From: Planctomycetales bacterium
GTDB taxonomy: Bacteria > Planctomycetota > Planctomycetia > Isosphaerales > Isosphaeraceae
DNA: 40,585 nucleotides
Direction: 5' to 3'
Assembly: GCA_027451885.1 (NCBI GenBank)
Contig: DAIDHX010000248.1
Span: forward strand, 1-40,585
The translations under genes and the position numbers were made by a program. Shown piece after piece: positions 3,851-29,537 of this stretch (positions within the stretch are counted from its first letter, which is position 1; every line of letters starts with the position of its first letter). The notes under the pieces are model-generated. The model ran no database searches. It was given only the letters and a program-made list of their open reading frames with translations, and was not told where the DNA came from.

Positions 3851-4602
3851 TGGTCGCGCCCGATCTTGTATTTCGGCGGCAGCGGCGTGCCCAGAAACGC
3901 CCCGCGCCTGGCTTCAAAAATCGAATTGGCTGTGTCGTAATCATCATGGCGGCCGATGTCGAGCCAGTAGCACTCCTGGCGATAGCAATGGATCGCCCTG
4001 CCCGATCCGCGCATCGTTTCGAGCAGCTCGGGCATGCCGATCGCCTGCCCCGGCTTGAGAAAGCTCCACGCTTCGGGATGAAGAATGTAAACGCCCATGC
4101 TCACCTGGAAGCGATACTCGGGCTTTTCCTGATAACCGGCGAGAATATGGGGATCGTCGCCGAACTGGAGCACGCCGAAGTCGATCCTCACCTCGCGGGG
4201 ATACGACGCGATCGTTGCGCTTGCGCTGCGATTCGTGTGAAACTCATACATCGCATGATAGTCAAGCGTGGTCAGAATATCGCCGTTGATCACGAGCGCG
4301 GATTCGCGCGGAGGCTCGATCAAGGTGAGCCCGCCAGCGGTGCCAAGCGGAGTGGTCTCGCGGCAATAGTCGAGCCGAACGCCAAAGCGTTTGCCATCGC
4401 CGCAGAAGGTCTCGATGAGCTCGGTAAGATACCCCGTGACGATGGTGACATCGCGGAATCCAAAGCGCCCGAGCTGGCGAAGCACGACCTCGATGATCGG
4501 CATCGGATCAGCCTCGCCAAGCGGCATGAGCGGCTTGGGCAGCACGTGGGTATAGGGCCTAAGCCGTGTCCCTTTGCCGCCGGCAAGCAGGATGGCTCGC
4601 AT
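3847..4602 (-). CDS. Sugar-phosphate nucleotidyltransferase
   Basis: 251 residues. The N-terminus MRAILLAGGKGTRLRPYT followed by LPKPLMPLG is the nucleotide-binding signature of the NTP_transferase family, which couples an NTP to a sugar-1-phosphate with release of pyrophosphate. Further family marks are ETTPLGTAGGL (about 82-92), the metal-site VINGDILTTLDY (Asp in NGD), and QEKPEYRFQVSMGVYIL. It lacks the C-terminal left-handed helix of larger members, so it resembles short glucose-1-phosphate, mannose-1-phosphate or heptose-1-phosphate nucleotidyltransferases. Lying between an RfaG-like transferase and an LPS-type kinase on one side and PlsY on the other, it probably makes a nucleotide sugar for envelope glycans. 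The exact sugar and nucleotide are undetermined. Confidence 0.88.
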   Translation of the reverse strand: MRAILLAGGKGTRLRPYTHVLPKPLMPLGEADPMPIIEVVLRQLGRFGFRDVTIVTGYLTELIETFCGDGKRFGVRLDYCRETTPLGTAGGLTLIEPPRESALVINGDILTTLDYHAMYEFHTNRSASATIASYPREVRIDFGVLQFGDDPHILAGYQEKPEYRFQVSMGVYILHPEAWSFLKPGQAIGMPELLETMRGSGRAIHCYRQECYWLDIGRHDDYDTANSIFEARRGAFLGTPLPPKYKIGRDQ

Positions 4603-4656
4603 GGAGATCCCTTCCTTGGAAAGAGGGTCGCGCGGTGGCGACCGAGGTTCGATTGG

Positions 4657-5910
4657 TTATCCCGCGTGAGCCTTTTGCCTGGCGAAGTGCGGCATGCCTG
4701 CGCGTTCCAGCGCGCTCGAGCCGCGTTCGCGTCTGCGTGCCTTCACGGCGGCGACTTCTTCAAAGATCGCGATCAACTTGCGCACATGCGCGTCAAAGGT
4801 AAGCTCCGCGCCCAGTTCCCGCGCCTGGTGCGCCATCGCGCTGCGCCCGGCGGGATCGGCCATGCGCTCAAGCGCCGCCGCCAGTCCGGAAATATCGCTC
4901 GGCTCGTTCACGATCCAACCGTGGACCCCATCGGCGACCAGCTCGCTCGCGCCGTTTCTGCGGGTGGAGATCACCGGCAATCCGTACGCGAGCGCCTCGA
5001 GCAAAACGAGCGAGCACGGGTCGTAATGCGTCGGCTGAGCGAAGAAATCGCTCGCCGCGAACCAGGGGCGCACATCGTCCTGAAAGCCCAGGAAATGAAC
5101 CTCGTTCGCGATGCCCAGCCTCCGCGCCAGCTTGCGATACGGCCGGTCGTTGCCGCCGCCGGTGACGATCAAGTGAATTGGCACTGCGCCTGGGTTTTGC
5201 CGCCTGCGCAACCCCATCGCCTGGATCAGCTCGCCGAGGCCCTTGAGGGCGTAGTTATGCCCGGCGAACAGCGCGGCCAGGGCGTGAGGCCCAAGCCCAA
5301 GGGCGGTTCTGGCCTCCGCGCGGGCGGCCGCGGGATCGGGCAGCCTCATCCGCTCGGGATCGATGGCGTTATGGACCACATGGATTCGATGCAACGGCAC
5401 ATGATGAAATGTCTCGAGATGCCGTGCGACCATCCGGCTCACGGCCACGATCCGTGATCCCCTGCGCGGGTCGTACTGTTTGCGCTCGGTCGCCCGCTGG
5501 CGCCAGAACTTGGGATTGAGCGCCTTGCCAAGCACATACAACCCGCGCCCGAGCGCGGCGCGTCTGCGCCCGGCGTTGGCCAGAATGCTCGCGGCCTGCA
5601 CGCCGCCTTGCGGGATCAGGACGTCCTGGGCATGGGTGCCAATGAAGCCGACTGCGCAATCGACGCCTGCCGCGTGGAGCGCTCGCTCGCTTTCCCGAGC
5701 AAAACTTGCGAGCCGGGCGAGCCGCGTCTTGCCCTCGACCGAGACAGGGCAGAATCGCGCCTGGGCGGGCAAGACGCCAGGCGCGACCGTTTCGGCGTGG
5801 ATCTCGACCTCGCAGCCGTGCTTCACAAGCGCCCGCGCCAGGTCGACGACATACGTCTCCGCACCGCCGCGGCTGGGATCCACATGTTGATAGATAAGCG
5901 CGACTCGCAT
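4657..5910 (-). CDS. Family 4 glycosyltransferase, RfaG-like
   Basis: 417 residues with the GT-B fold of GT4 enzymes. The N-terminus MRVALIYQHVDPSRGGAETY carries the glycine-rich acceptor loop. Next come a linker with SRIVAVSRMVARHLETFH and HVVHNAIDPERM, and the donor-binding half with LFAGHNYALKGLGELI, IHLIVTGGG and VHFLGF. The EX7E-type region PCSLVLLEALAYGLPVI closes it. The opening and the VVHNAID motif resemble WaaG/RfaG, which adds the first hexose to the LPS inner core. The adjoining RfaP-type kinase repeats the waaG-waaP pairing of enterobacteria. ATG 5910 is chosen because GAAAGG lies 8-13 bases upstream; the longer open frame to 6291 reads antisense to the kinase gene and is not coding. 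Confidence 0.88.
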   Translation of the reverse strand: MRVALIYQHVDPSRGGAETYVVDLARALVKHGCEVEIHAETVAPGVLPAQARFCPVSVEGKTRLARLASFARESERALHAAGVDCAVGFIGTHAQDVLIPQGGVQAASILANAGRRRAALGRGLYVLGKALNPKFWRQRATERKQYDPRRGSRIVAVSRMVARHLETFHHVPLHRIHVVHNAIDPERMRLPDPAAARAEARTALGLGPHALAALFAGHNYALKGLGELIQAMGLRRRQNPGAVPIHLIVTGGGNDRPYRKLARRLGIANEVHFLGFQDDVRPWFAASDFFAQPTHYDPCSLVLLEALAYGLPVISTRRNGASELVADGVHGWIVNEPSDISGLAAALERMADPAGRSAMAHQARELGAELTFDAHVRKLIAIFEEVAAVKARRRERGSSALERAGMPHFARQKAHAG

Positions 5911-5926
5911 CTGTTGAGCCTTTCTT

Positions 5927-6847
5927 TCAGCCTTGCCACAGCGAGAGGAATCGCCCGAGCCGCTTACCCCGGCCCGAGCCGCGATTATGAGCCGAGTACC
6001 GCCCCGCGCGCAGCCGCACAAGCCACGCCAGCAGACCTGGCCGGCGAACGCCCGCGTAGCGGCAATAGTGCACCAGGAATCGCAAGCGATCGCGGTCGTC
6101 GATCGCCGCGACCTCCTCCGTGGAGTAGAGCAACTGGCCGAGATCCTTGATTCTGCGATAAGGGGCGGTGAATCGCGATTCGATAGCGCGGTGGAGGTCG
6201 ATGAGGGCAAGCCGCGGGCTGCGCGGATCCCGATCCGCGAGCGCGGGATCGAGAAAAAAATGGCAGAGATAAAGATCGCTGTGAAAGACATTGCGGCGGT
6301 GAATCGCCGCTGCGATCCTGGCGATCTCCCTGGCGAGCGCGCGTTTGAGCGCCGCGAAGTCGGCGGGGGCCATGCCGCGTTCGAGGCCGGGCAAGAGCTC
6401 GTTGAGCGCTCCTTGACCCGAGAGCTCGAGCACCATCAGGAAGCTCTGCTGATCGCCAGTTTCCGCGACCCGGCCACCCAGCGCCACGACCTCCGGTACG
6501 TTGATCCCGAGGGCGCGGACGCGTTCCAGGTTCTGCCGCTCCACCTCGGCCGGCGAGCGCGTGCCGGTGATCCGCTCCGGGAACGAGCGCTCGAAATGCC
6601 GCTTGAGATAGACCGAGATCGGCCGATCACCCAGCCGGTGATCCGGATCGCTCGGGTGCAGGATCACCCGCGCCGTGGAACGTCCTTGCTTGGCATGGAA
6701 GCGGTCGCGCGAATCCACTCCCATCGCCCGCTCCGTCGTCCAGCCCGTGAGATACCGCGCGAAACGCGCGTCAACCCACAGCCAGTTGCGCTCGGAGTCA
6801 ACCGCGGCCGCGCTCGTAGAGTTCATCATGGCTGGCTTCATGGTCAT
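5927..6847 (-). CDS. Lipopolysaccharide core kinase, RfaP/InaA type
   Basis: 306 residues, a small protein-kinase-like fold. Seen in order: YLKRHF with the likely ATP-contacting lysine (K82), FLMVLELSGQGALNELL (hinge region), the catalytic-loop motif HSDLYLCHFF (189-198, catalytic Asp 191) and the metal-binding LALIDLHRA (Asp 217). HxDLYxxHF is characteristic of RfaP/WaaP, which phosphorylate heptose in the LPS core, and of related InaA-family kinases. ATG 6847 is chosen because it forms an ATGA overlap with the stop of the upstream membrane glycosyltransferase; in-frame ATGs at 6865 and 6841 exist. The GT4 gene begins 16 bases downstream. The protein has no signal or membrane helix, fitting a kinase acting on the inner face of the cytoplasmic membrane. 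Confidence 0.87.
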   Translation of the reverse strand: MTMKPAMMNSTSAAAVDSERNWLWVDARFARYLTGWTTERAMGVDSRDRFHAKQGRSTARVILHPSDPDHRLGDRPISVYLKRHFERSFPERITGTRSPAEVERQNLERVRALGINVPEVVALGGRVAETGDQQSFLMVLELSGQGALNELLPGLERGMAPADFAALKRALAREIARIAAAIHRRNVFHSDLYLCHFFLDPALADRDPRSPRLALIDLHRAIESRFTAPYRRIKDLGQLLYSTEEVAAIDDRDRLRFLVHYCRYAGVRRPGLLAWLVRLRAGRYSAHNRGSGRGKRLGRFLSLWQG

Positions 6848-12320: not shown

Positions 12321-13277
12321 CTAGCGTGGCACCTCCACATCAGCAAGCGCGCGGCCGAGCACAAGATCGGGCGTGTCGGCCGCCACCTGGGCCTCGGGCG
12401 TCAGAATCAAGCGATGCCTGAGCACCGCGGGCGCAGCAGCCTTGACATCGTCGGGCGCAACATATTCCCGCCCGTCCATCGCCGCCATCGCCTTGCTCAT
12501 GAGCAAGAGATGCACTCCCGCGCGCGGGCTCGCACCCACCTGGATTCGCGGCGATGTCCGCGTGGTTCGCACAATCTGGTTCAGATAACGCAGAACCTCC
12601 GGCGCCACCTGAATCCCTAGCAAATCCCTCCGCGCGGCGAGCATCTCGTCCGGGGTTGTGATTGGTTTGAGCTCGCGCGCGGCAGCCTGGTGCAGATCCC
12701 TTCCCTGGTGATACGCCTCCAGAATCGCAAGCTCGACCTCGTCGCTGGGATAACGCAAGAGAATCTTGGTCATGAACCGGTCAACCTGCGCCTCGGGGAG
12801 CGGATACGTACCCTCCGATTCGACCGGATTCTGCGTGGCCAGCACCGTGAACAGAGGCGGCAGCCTGTGCGTTTCCGAGCCCAGCGACACCGAGCGCTCC
12901 TCCATCACTTCAAGCAGCGCTGCCTGCGTCTTCGGTGGAGCGCGGTTGATCTCGTCAGCCAGCAGAATCGTGGTGAAGATCGGCCCCTTGCGCAACTGGA
13001 ATGACTGCGAGGCCATCTGAAAGACCTCCGTCCCCACAATATCCGCGGGCATCAGGTCAGGCGTGAACTGGATGCGCTGAAATTCCGCCTCGACAAGCCG
13101 CGCCAGAGTCTTCGCGAGCAGCGTTTTACCCAGCCCCGGCACCCCCTCGAGCAGCACATGCCCGCCGGCGAAGATCGTGGCGAGAAGCTGCTCGATCACG
13201 TCTTCCTGGCCCAGGAACACCGTGCGCAGGCCAGCCTTGATCCGAGATGCATGTTCATGAAATCGTGCGAGATCCAT
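12321..13277 (-). CDS. MoxR-family AAA+ ATPase
   Basis: 318 residues, the family's normal size. Walker A GVPGLGKT (45-52), Walker B ILLADEINRA (104-113), the stretch PPKTQAALLEVMEE after it, and sensor-1 region VLATQNPVESEGTYPLPEAQ define MoxR. The C-terminal lid has VGASPRAGVHLL. MoxR proteins act as chaperone-like ATPases with vWA-domain partners, here the DUF58 protein encoded 4 bases downstream. ATG 13277 lies within the end of the DUF4350 gene (23-base overlap), which suggests translational coupling. The open frame continues upstream to 13583, but that part is low-complexity and antisense-like. Confidence 0.93.
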   Translation of the reverse strand: MDLARFHEHASRIKAGLRTVFLGQEDVIEQLLATIFAGGHVLLEGVPGLGKTLLAKTLARLVEAEFQRIQFTPDLMPADIVGTEVFQMASQSFQLRKGPIFTTILLADEINRAPPKTQAALLEVMEERSVSLGSETHRLPPLFTVLATQNPVESEGTYPLPEAQVDRFMTKILLRYPSDEVELAILEAYHQGRDLHQAAARELKPITTPDEMLAARRDLLGIQVAPEVLRYLNQIVRTTRTSPRIQVGASPRAGVHLLLMSKAMAAMDGREYVAPDDVKAAAPAVLRHRLILTPEAQVAADTPDLVLGRALADVEVPR

Positions 13278-16181: not shown

Positions 16182-16210
16182 TTGCCGGCACTCTTCCGAT
16201 CGGTTATGAA
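16182..16210 (+). promoter_or_regulatory. Candidate promoter with embedded palindrome for the GYF-RDD gene
   Basis: TTGCCG (16182-16187), 17 bases, TATGAA (16205-16210). Between and touching them lies TTCCGATCGGTT (16195-16206), whose core CCGATCGG is palindromic. The same 12 bases recur at 28195, upstream of the amidase gene. An operator between -35 and -10 would suit a repressor. Promoter elements are only moderate matches. Confidence 0.35.
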
Positions 16211-26984: not shown

Positions 26985-27893
26985 CTAGAGCGATTCCAGG
27001 AAACTGACCGTCACGCGGACCAGATTGGCGCAATCCATTGCGTGGATTTGATGGCCGACGCCGGGGAAATCCACGAGCGTGGCGTCCGGGATCTGGGCGA
27101 GCATCGTCTCGGCATCGGCCCGGGGCAGCATGCCTCCGCGTGCCTCATCGCCGCGAAGCAAGAGCACCGGGCAGGCGATCCGGGGCAAGAGCCCCGGCAG
27201 GTCAAGGCCCTCGCACCAGCGCCGCGCGAGCACGGGCTCGTAGATTCCGGGATCGAGGTCGCGTGCGAACCGCGCGCTCATGCGCAGCGATGCACCGTCG
27301 CGCGTCTCCGCCAGGCGGATTGGCCGGCCCGCCTCGTCGCGCGCCACAATGACGTCCCCGAGCGCACACGCGGCACCCCTCACGTCGTGTGACTCCGCGC
27401 TTCCCGCCAGCCGCTGCATCGCCTCGAACATCGGCGCATAAGGCGTCTCGAGGATCCGCTCCAGAAAACCCTCCGACGGCGGATCCTCGGCCACGACCGC
27501 CTTCACCTGCTCCGGCCAGCGCGCCGCGGCCGCGAGCGCCAGAATCGCACCGAGCGAATGGCCAAACAGCACCACCGGCTGGCCAACGTGCTCAAGGAGC
27601 GATCCCATGTCTTCCAGATAATCCCGGATGAGGTAACGCCCCGTGACCCGGCTCGATTTACCGTGCCCGCGGAGGTCGACGCCGTGGAGCTTCCAGTACG
27701 GCAAGAGCGCGGGAAAGAGCGTCATATAATCACGCCAGCACCTTCCCAGGCCGTGGATACAAACCAGGGGCGGACCATGATCCGGCCCCACGCCCAGATT
27801 CAGAATCACGCCGTCCGCCGCGGCAACCGCAGTCTCGCGAAACACCGGCCGCGACTGACCTTCAGAAAGCAAGGCTGGCATGATGAGCGTCAT
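26985..27893 (-). CDS. Alpha/beta hydrolase
   Basis: 302 residues if started at ATG 27893; ATG 27881 (MPALLSEG) is equally possible and neither has a clear Shine-Dalgarno. The fold is plain: oxyanion segment LVCIHGLGRCWRDY (44-57), strand and turn HGVDLRGHGKSSR, nucleophile elbow LFGHSLGAILAL (Ser 113), acid in LLLRGDEARGG, and catalytic His in VDFPGVGHQIHA. It has no signal peptide, and the substrate is unknown (esterase, lactonase or C-C hydrolase). The N-terminal part of the longer open frame, up to 28439, runs through the intergenic region and is rejected. It ends at the intrinsic terminator before leuS. Confidence 0.88.
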   Translation of the reverse strand: MTLIMPALLSEGQSRPVFRETAVAAADGVILNLGVGPDHGPPLVCIHGLGRCWRDYMTLFPALLPYWKLHGVDLRGHGKSSRVTGRYLIRDYLEDMGSLLEHVGQPVVLFGHSLGAILALAAAARWPEQVKAVVAEDPPSEGFLERILETPYAPMFEAMQRLAGSAESHDVRGAACALGDVIVARDEAGRPIRLAETRDGASLRMSARFARDLDPGIYEPVLARRWCEGLDLPGLLPRIACPVLLLRGDEARGGMLPRADAETMLAQIPDATLVDFPGVGHQIHAMDCANLVRVTVSFLESL

Positions 27894-28194
27894 CCAGGGA
27901 ACCGTGAACCCGCTGGCCGCCGCGGCCCTTTGCCGGGGCGTTCTTGAAGCCGAGACACCGAAAGAAATCCTTGCCGCAAGGCTACGCGAACCGCCAGCCT
28001 GGTGGCAATCCGGCGGCGCACAATCCGGCATGTTCGCCCTGATCGACCCAACCATCCCACGCCTTGCACTCTTCTTATTCGACCCATTTCTTGCATGCTG
28101 AGATCGGCAGGCCGTCAAGGCTAAGCCCCAAAGGCCGTGACCCTGCCCGCCTGCTCCTTTCACTTCCCATTTTGACAATCGGTGTTGAAAGGGC

Positions 28195-28228
28195 TTCCGA
28201 TCGGTTGTGCGGAAGAGTCCGATCGGAA
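28195..28228. promoter_or_regulatory. Paired palindromic sites, possible enhancer-binding sites
   Basis: TTCCGATCGG (28195-28204) and its exact reverse complement CCGATCGGAA (28219-28228) are separated by 14 bases; each arm contains the palindrome CCGATCGG. The centres are 24 bases apart. The pair lies about 120-150 bases upstream of the sigma54-type promoter, the usual place for activator sites, with A-tracts between that could bend the DNA. A terminator is excluded because no T-run follows on either strand. Confidence 0.45.
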
Positions 28229-28344
28229 CTTGAGAAAAAAAGGAAAAAAAATTGGAGTGAAGCTTCCTTCGGCCAAATGGCGTGTAGACTTGAGTCGAAA
28301 GCCGCGATTTCGGGCGGTCAAAGCTGGCAATGAGATCCTGAGTT

Positions 28345-28360
28345 TGGCACTGCGGTTGCG
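28345..28360 (+). promoter_or_regulatory. Sigma54-type promoter for the amidase gene
   Basis: TGGCAC, five bases, TTGC (28345-28359), preceded by TTT. This matches the -24/-12 consensus TGGCACG-N4-TTGCW with the invariant GG and GC at correct spacing; only the G after TGGCAC and the last base differ. Transcription would start near 28371, giving a leader of about 57 bases before ATG 28428. Confidence 0.6.
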
Positions 28361-28427
28361 AATGCAACGATTGTAAGCCCCGGCCCCGATGGCTGGGTGA
28401 TGAGACCGCCTGAACGGGAGAAGCGAG

Positions 28428-29537
28428 ATGATCCAGCATATGATGGATAGGTTCGGGGTGCGCGCAGGGCTTGCCGCTATGTCGGCGGGCGTGCTCGTGT
28501 TGGCAAGCGTACCTGGTTGTGCGCGGTCGCGGTCGTCGTATCGGCCGATATATGCCGGCGCGCCGGTGAGTTCAGGCGCGCCTTGCGTGGGCTGCGAATC
28601 CAGGTCGGGGGGAACGGTCGACTCCTCGGTGTCGAGTTCGATCACACAGGATGCGGAAGCAGGAACGATTGAATCGACTGTACCGAGTTTGCCGAGCGGA
28701 TCGAGCAAGAGCGGGAAGTCGGTTCAGTCGGTGCCGAATGAGGCGACTCCGAGGTCGCGAATCGGCCAGGACCCTGACTTTGATCCAGGCTCGAATTCTC
28801 GGTCGTCGAGCCAGAAGCCGTCCGCGCCCACGAAAACGCCTGGTTCAACGGGCAACGGACCGAGCCTCGAAGACTCAACCACCTCCCGCGCCAAGCCGAA
28901 CGCCCGGCGTTCGCAATTCGACCAGTCGGTACGGGCGCCTCGGGTGATCCGGCAGGCGAGCCTTGACCCCCGGCTGCGTGACTTCTTGAGCGATACCGCG
29001 GCGGACCAGCTTGCTTACCCCGACAAGGCCGACCGCCCCTGGAAGTATGTGATCATCCACCATTCGGCCACCGCCGAGGGAGACTACGCCCAGATTGATC
29101 GCGACCATCGCAAGCGGCTCGGCTACGATGGCTGCGGCTACCATTTCGTGATCGGCAATGGCACCACGAGCGGCGATGGCCAGATCGAAGTCGCCTCACG
29201 CTGGAATCAGCAAAAACCCGGCATTCACTGCCGCAACGCCCAGAACCATGACTTTGAGGAATACGGCGTCGGAGTCTGTCTGATCGGCAACTTCGACAAG
29301 GCGCCTCCCACGCCCCGGCAGATGGAAGCACTCAAGGCGCTCACGGCGTATCTCGAGGGCCGCTATAACATCCGCCCGAGCCGGGTTGCCACTCACACGC
29401 GCGTCGCGGCCACGCCGACGGTCTGCCCCGGTCGTTTCTTCCCGGACGACTCGGCCAGGACCTCGGCGAAGGCCGCGTACAAGGAATCCGCGCTGCGGGC
29501 ATCCTGGGTGCCCGCGAGCACCCGGGGACGCGACTAA
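28428..29537 (+). CDS. Predicted lipoprotein N-acetylmuramoyl-L-alanine amidase (amidase_2/PGRP fold)
   Basis: 369 residues. The hydrophobic N-terminus ends in LASVPGC (Cys 31), a probable lipobox. Residues 32-185 are a Ser/Thr/Pro-rich linker likely to be disordered. The amidase_2 domain spans about 195-340: YVIIHHSATAEGD (zinc His 211), YHFVIGNG, IHCRNAQNHDFEEYGVGVCL, IGNF, VATHTRVAATPTVCPGRFFP (zinc His 323 and Cys 333). This fold cuts the bond between muramic acid and the peptide stem of peptidoglycan. The linker suggests an enzyme anchored in a membrane and reaching the wall. ATG 28428 has GGGAG upstream, and the gene lies behind a sigma54-type promoter. Its TAA overlaps the convergent Nudix gene by 4 bases. 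Confidence 0.88.
   Translation: MIQHMMDRFGVRAGLAAMSAGVLVLASVPGCARSRSSYRPIYAGAPVSSGAPCVGCESRSGGTVDSSVSSSITQDAEAGTIESTVPSLPSGSSKSGKSVQSVPNEATPRSRIGQDPDFDPGSNSRSSSQKPSAPTKTPGSTGNGPSLEDSTTSRAKPNARRSQFDQSVRAPRVIRQASLDPRLRDFLSDTAADQLAYPDKADRPWKYVIIHHSATAEGDYAQIDRDHRKRLGYDGCGYHFVIGNGTTSGDGQIEVASRWNQQKPGIHCRNAQNHDFEEYGVGVCLIGNFDKAPPTPRQMEALKALTAYLEGRYNIRPSRVATHTRVAATPTVCPGRFFPDDSARTSAKAAYKESALRASWVPASTRGRD

Follow-up and report, generated by a model that had tools for sequence, protein, structure and literature searches.

The gene for a lipoprotein-type N-acetylmuramoyl-L-alanine amidase, encoded at 28428–29537 (+) of the 40,585-nucleotide window analysed here, is preceded by a sigma54-type −24/−12 promoter and by a 31-bp upstream block that, judging from its distribution, probably constitutes a family-wide regulatory element with a single target. 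We consider it probable that the amidase is controlled by a sigma54 promoter driven by a dedicated AAA+ activator (bacterial enhancer-binding protein, bEBP) acting at this block, the candidate site B, and perhaps at a second candidate, site A. Under this model, positions 28229–28359 would control a single gene, that of the amidase. Sigma54 RNA polymerase would bind at 28344–28359 and stay inactive until the bEBP acts; the bEBP, bound at block B around 62 bp upstream of the −24/−12 element and possibly occupying the CTTGAG/A-tract site around 60 bp further upstream as well, would contact the polymerase across bent DNA, with the promoter opening near 28371. To our knowledge, little is known about the control of peptidoglycan cleavage in planctomycetes. 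If the model is correct, one lipoprotein amidase would have its own enhancer-dependent switch throughout the family, providing a defined target for finding the activator and its signal.

The promoter element, TTGGCACTGCGGTTGC, occupies 28344–28359 (+), with GG at 28346–28347 and GC at 28358–28359 separated by ten bases. It matches the consensus YTGGCAC-N5-TTGC and is the sole exact match to YTGGCAYN5TTGC in the window. An earlier sequence-only reading had recognized a −24/−12 element with correct GG/GC spacing, which is real, but had placed it at 28345–28360, one base off; it had also put the element 68 bases before the amidase ATG, and the ATG is indeed at 28428. Transcription of the amidase is predicted to start near 28370–28372. 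A single pair of promoter boxes is by itself weak evidence against chance: exact matches to the pattern number 18 in the 6.2-Mb host genome compared to 8 for a reversed control, and matches with one mismatch number 4 in the window compared to 2.9 expected. The element rises above chance through its conservation: 31 of 34 genomes carry it at a fixed place, the set being made up of amidase-bearing relatives and further loci found through block B; conservation upstream of orthologues had been proposed as a check of the promoter. All eight core bases (GGCA-N6-TTGC) are retained in 30 of the 34 genomes, and one more with a single change keeps GGC..TTGC. Of the remaining three genomes, two retain no more than a poor GG-N10-GC and the third lacks one; the bases flanking the element in relatives carry near 0–0.4 bit. 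Comparison among relatives thus supports a sigma54 promoter before the amidase that is conserved at a fixed position family-wide.

The strongest feature of the control region, unmentioned in the sequence-only reading, is block B (TCGGCCAAATGGCGTGTAGACTTGAGTCGAA, 28269–28299 (+), 31 bp), the candidate main activator site, whose consensus over the family is TCGKCCAAWCGGCGTGTAGACTTGAGTCGAA. In an information profile of the 34 genomes, at least twelve columns are invariant, with TCG at −15 to −13, GTA, ACTT, A and CG unchanged throughout, and the columns 10 bases outside the block carry 0–0.3 bit. Block B occurs at one or no mismatch in 37 of 45 family genomes, almost always as a single copy located at the amidase, its placement being judged by position before the amidase for the loci that were read, all but the last few of those listed; the small number of additional matches with one mismatch have their differences in the core and resemble chance hits. 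The host genome contains this site and otherwise one match to the core with two mismatches. At up to two mismatches the block is confined to the family, as the 302 genomes from other families of the class yielded nothing closer than three-mismatch matches, found in five genomes and in line with chance expectation. We found no description of the element in the open-access literature searched. Since each genome contains essentially a single block B, the activator of this site probably serves the amidase alone or very few genes, and this secreted, lipid-anchored amidase would be made only on a specific signal. The block also offers a ready bait for pulling down the regulator and a marker for the orthologous amidase gene.

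The window comes from a member of the Isosphaeraceae, and the same-family relatives in our genome set include Isosphaera pallida, Singulisphaera acidiphila and Paludisphaera borealis. Of 24 relatives from the same genus or family, 20 have an amidase orthologue, and block B is present in all 21 amidase-bearing genomes of this orthologue comparison. It is absent from the four family members that have no credible amidase (G007, G019, G021 and G024, the last having a weak match that is not credible). This distribution bears on whether sites A and B might instead serve the gene transcribed divergently upstream. In favour of this, the intergenic stretch separates two divergent genes, and the neighbour most often found is leuS, directly divergent in most relatives; in the window an alpha/beta hydrolase gene (26985–28100 (−)) lies between leuS and the amidase. 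However, block B stays with the amidase where the neighbour differs from leuS, in the window and in several other genomes, and it is missing from the amidase-less family genomes. We therefore rejected ownership by the divergent gene, which is hardly credible given that block B follows the amidase across changes of neighbour.

Site A (28229–28251 (+)), conserved in 33 relatives, is a candidate second binding site and intrinsic bend. It consists of CTTGAG at 28229–28234 followed by two A-tracts around 10 bp apart, at 28235–28241 and 28244–28251; across the 33 relatives CTT.A is invariant and positions +7 to +10 and +16 to +20 are A-rich. A and B are 59–65 bp apart, except in two genomes belonging to a single genus, where the distance is 50 bp, and the distance from B to the −24 box is 61–65 bp, or 52 in one genome and 54 for the two poor −24/−12 matches. 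Three spacing outliers (A to B of 50 twice, B to −24 of 52 once) are shorter by around 10 bp, which is one helical turn and is as expected if the bound proteins need one face of the DNA. The spacer columns carry almost no information, whereas A, B and the promoter are near invariant. Block B lies around 70–100 bp upstream of the predicted start, a distance included in the usual range for enhancer sites.

Contiguous conserved blocks of this kind also resemble riboswitch cores, raising the alternative that a long leader harbours an RNA element, either structured or trans-acting. The consensus fold was nevertheless empty from A to B and from B to the promoter (energy 0.00), no better than column shuffles, no credible Rfam match was obtained, and the roughly 10-bp indels that separate the blocks agree better with DNA phasing. 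On the basis of the empty fold and the Rfam result we rejected an RNA element, which we regard as most improbable. One leader hairpin was found, no better than shuffles. A further short element, TTACAA, precedes site A by 33–36 bp in 20 of 33 relatives, and 25 of 34 genomes have this hexamer anywhere in the 90 bp compared to 2.6 by shuffling. In the window, the corresponding position (A minus 34) is occupied by an inverted repeat of two CCGATCGG palindromes.

It is this inverted repeat, at 28195–28228, that the sequence-only reading had taken as the activator site. Its sequence is as described there: TTCCGATCGG at 28195–28204 and its inverse CCGATCGGAA at 28219–28228 form a perfect inverted repeat of 10 bp whose arms are 14 bases apart, around 117–150 bases upstream of the −24 element, and the A-tracts lie downstream of it, before the −24 box. 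Besides the perfect repeat, a role as the enhancer is favoured by the 22-bp separation of the palindromes, by an enhancer-compatible place and by the fact that this is the sole such pair among the copies examined. Comparison with relatives points the other way. The pair was found upstream of none of the relatives' orthologues, with single scattered matches in four and none in the two same-genus orthologues, which keep all the other elements. The 10-mer behaves differently elsewhere: each of the 21 further TTCCGATCGG sites examined in the host genome stands alone in a long open frame, with no partner within 60 bp, and on these grounds we also rejected CCGATCGG as a regulon element. We thus consider the repeat very unlikely to be the enhancer and do not judge it part of the conserved control region. 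It is possibly a lineage-specific site of some regulator, given its capacity to fold into a hairpin and the unusual occurrence of such a pair in this genome. The window contains 3 copies of TTCCGATCGG compared to 0.23 expected, with CCGATCGG itself at background (4 compared to 2.8 expected); the third copy of TTCCGATCGG, at 16194–16203, is unpaired. A reversed-pattern control for CCGATCGG (5 against 29) was set aside, since reversal produces CTAG, a tetramer generally rare in bacteria. The enhancer-type architecture proposed with the palindromes is therefore retained in altered form, its layout supported by block B and site A rather than by CCGATCGG.

The main weakness of the sigma54 model comes from three genomes, G017, G004 and G023, which keep site A and block B without a standard −24/−12 element, and which leave room for a second kind of promoter. 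rpoN is present in G017 and G004 despite this. Because these genomes keep block B without a recognizable −24/−12 element, the block may have another partner or promoter. It could be the site of a regulator other than a bEBP, or A and B could form a separate sigma70-family or ECF basal promoter, with the sigma54 promoter added second. The persistence of A and B where the −24/−12 element is degenerate speaks for this alternative, and GTGTAGACTT contains TAnnnT, a possible −10 box. However, there is no −35-like box at the right distance and a scan found no sigma70-type site; a promoter for a sigma factor would be expected at many genes, yet block B is single-copy; and the fixed, helix-phased distance from B to −24 argues for coupling between the two. 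We consider this alternative unlikely, although not negligible. We assign a similarly low probability to a single-target regulator that reads block B by a recognition unlike that of palindromic bEBP sites and switches the amidase, with or without sigma54, across the family. Most known bEBP sites are palindromic, and block B is not a clean palindrome. Upstream of the amidase in G017 (locus L044), block B is intact and the nearest promoter-like boxes are spaced GG-N12-GC rather than N10, making this genome a possible natural spacing mutant.

The control that we favour, a bEBP acting on sigma54 polymerase, would draw on machinery encoded in these genomes. rpoN is present in the host genome (G000; PF04552, E = 7.6e-63) and in 23 of the 25 relatives searched, which makes 24 of 26 genomes, and the two assemblies where it was missed are incomplete. 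In the host genome the GAFTGA loop is present in nine proteins and missing from two further, degenerate ones, and bEBPs number about ten to twelve. No activator gene adjoins the amidase. The dedicated sigma54 activator suggested in the sequence-only reading is plausible given essentially one B site per genome, but none was identified among the 11 bEBP-like proteins of the host. We compared these 11 for presence in G010 and G022 and absence from G007 and G021, and only the protein encoded at G000:C126:7628-9049, a receiver-type regulator resembling NtrC/AtoC, had orthologues in the first two and not in the others. Its close orthologues (at least 56% identity, 45 genomes) are missing from G022, G012, G013, G014, G043, G044 and G023, where block B or the amidase is present, and one is present in G019, a 77% complete genome in which no amidase was found. 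With so many exceptions, this protein is a weak lead only. The lead regulator gene comes after a gene whose product resembles a fusion of an ECF sigma factor with a membrane-fusion-type protein (L269:2165-4396 and 4356-6053). Within the window, the AAA+ domain of sigma54 activators matches 12819–13202 (−) weakly (33 bits), and the product of this frame is probably another AAA+ ATPase.

The enzyme itself, of 369 residues, belongs to the Amidase_2 family (PF01510, E = 1.7e-19; 70.8 bits compared to a cut-off of 26), with the domain at residues 202–336. H211, H212, H323 and C333 are invariant in 15 orthologues, and the His, His and Cys zinc ligands of Amidase_2 are at the expected positions. An invariant Gly-Cys pair at residues 30–31 follows a hydrophobic stretch, as in a lipobox, and the lipobox cysteine, C31, is likewise invariant in the 15 orthologues. 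The protein is thus predicted to be a lipid-anchored, wall-cleaving amidase. Its closest solved structures are bacterial amidases, PGRPs and T7 lysozyme. It shares the Amidase_2 domain and invariant ligand positions with zinc amidases of the T7 lysozyme and PGRP type, but differs from them in its lipid anchor and in a long low-complexity linker ahead of the domain.

With sigma54 (RpoN)/NtrC-type systems the control region has in common an exact GG-N10-GC −24/−12 element, candidate upstream sites at a suitable distance on a constant helical face, putatively bent DNA, and a genome with rpoN and bEBPs. In contrast to those systems, the candidate upstream site is 31 bp long, mostly non-palindromic and present essentially once per genome, at one gene, and the activator is not encoded nearby. 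Francke et al. 2011 (PMC3162934) and a 2025 survey of sigma54 regulons (PMC12316311) link sigma54 to peptidoglycan and exterior functions, with the survey listing cell-wall categories that include MscS channels in Planctomycetia; the passages searched in these two papers report no planctomycete wall amidase and describe no dedicated cis block.

The control region may also be hidden by automatic annotation. The mechanical open reading frame of the upstream alpha/beta hydrolase (26985–28439 (−)) runs antisense across the whole control region and beyond the amidase start. Its Pfam domain begins only at residue 223, and the true start of the hydrolase is therefore probably well downstream of the mechanical one; annotation of the overlong frame may conceal the amidase promoter region.
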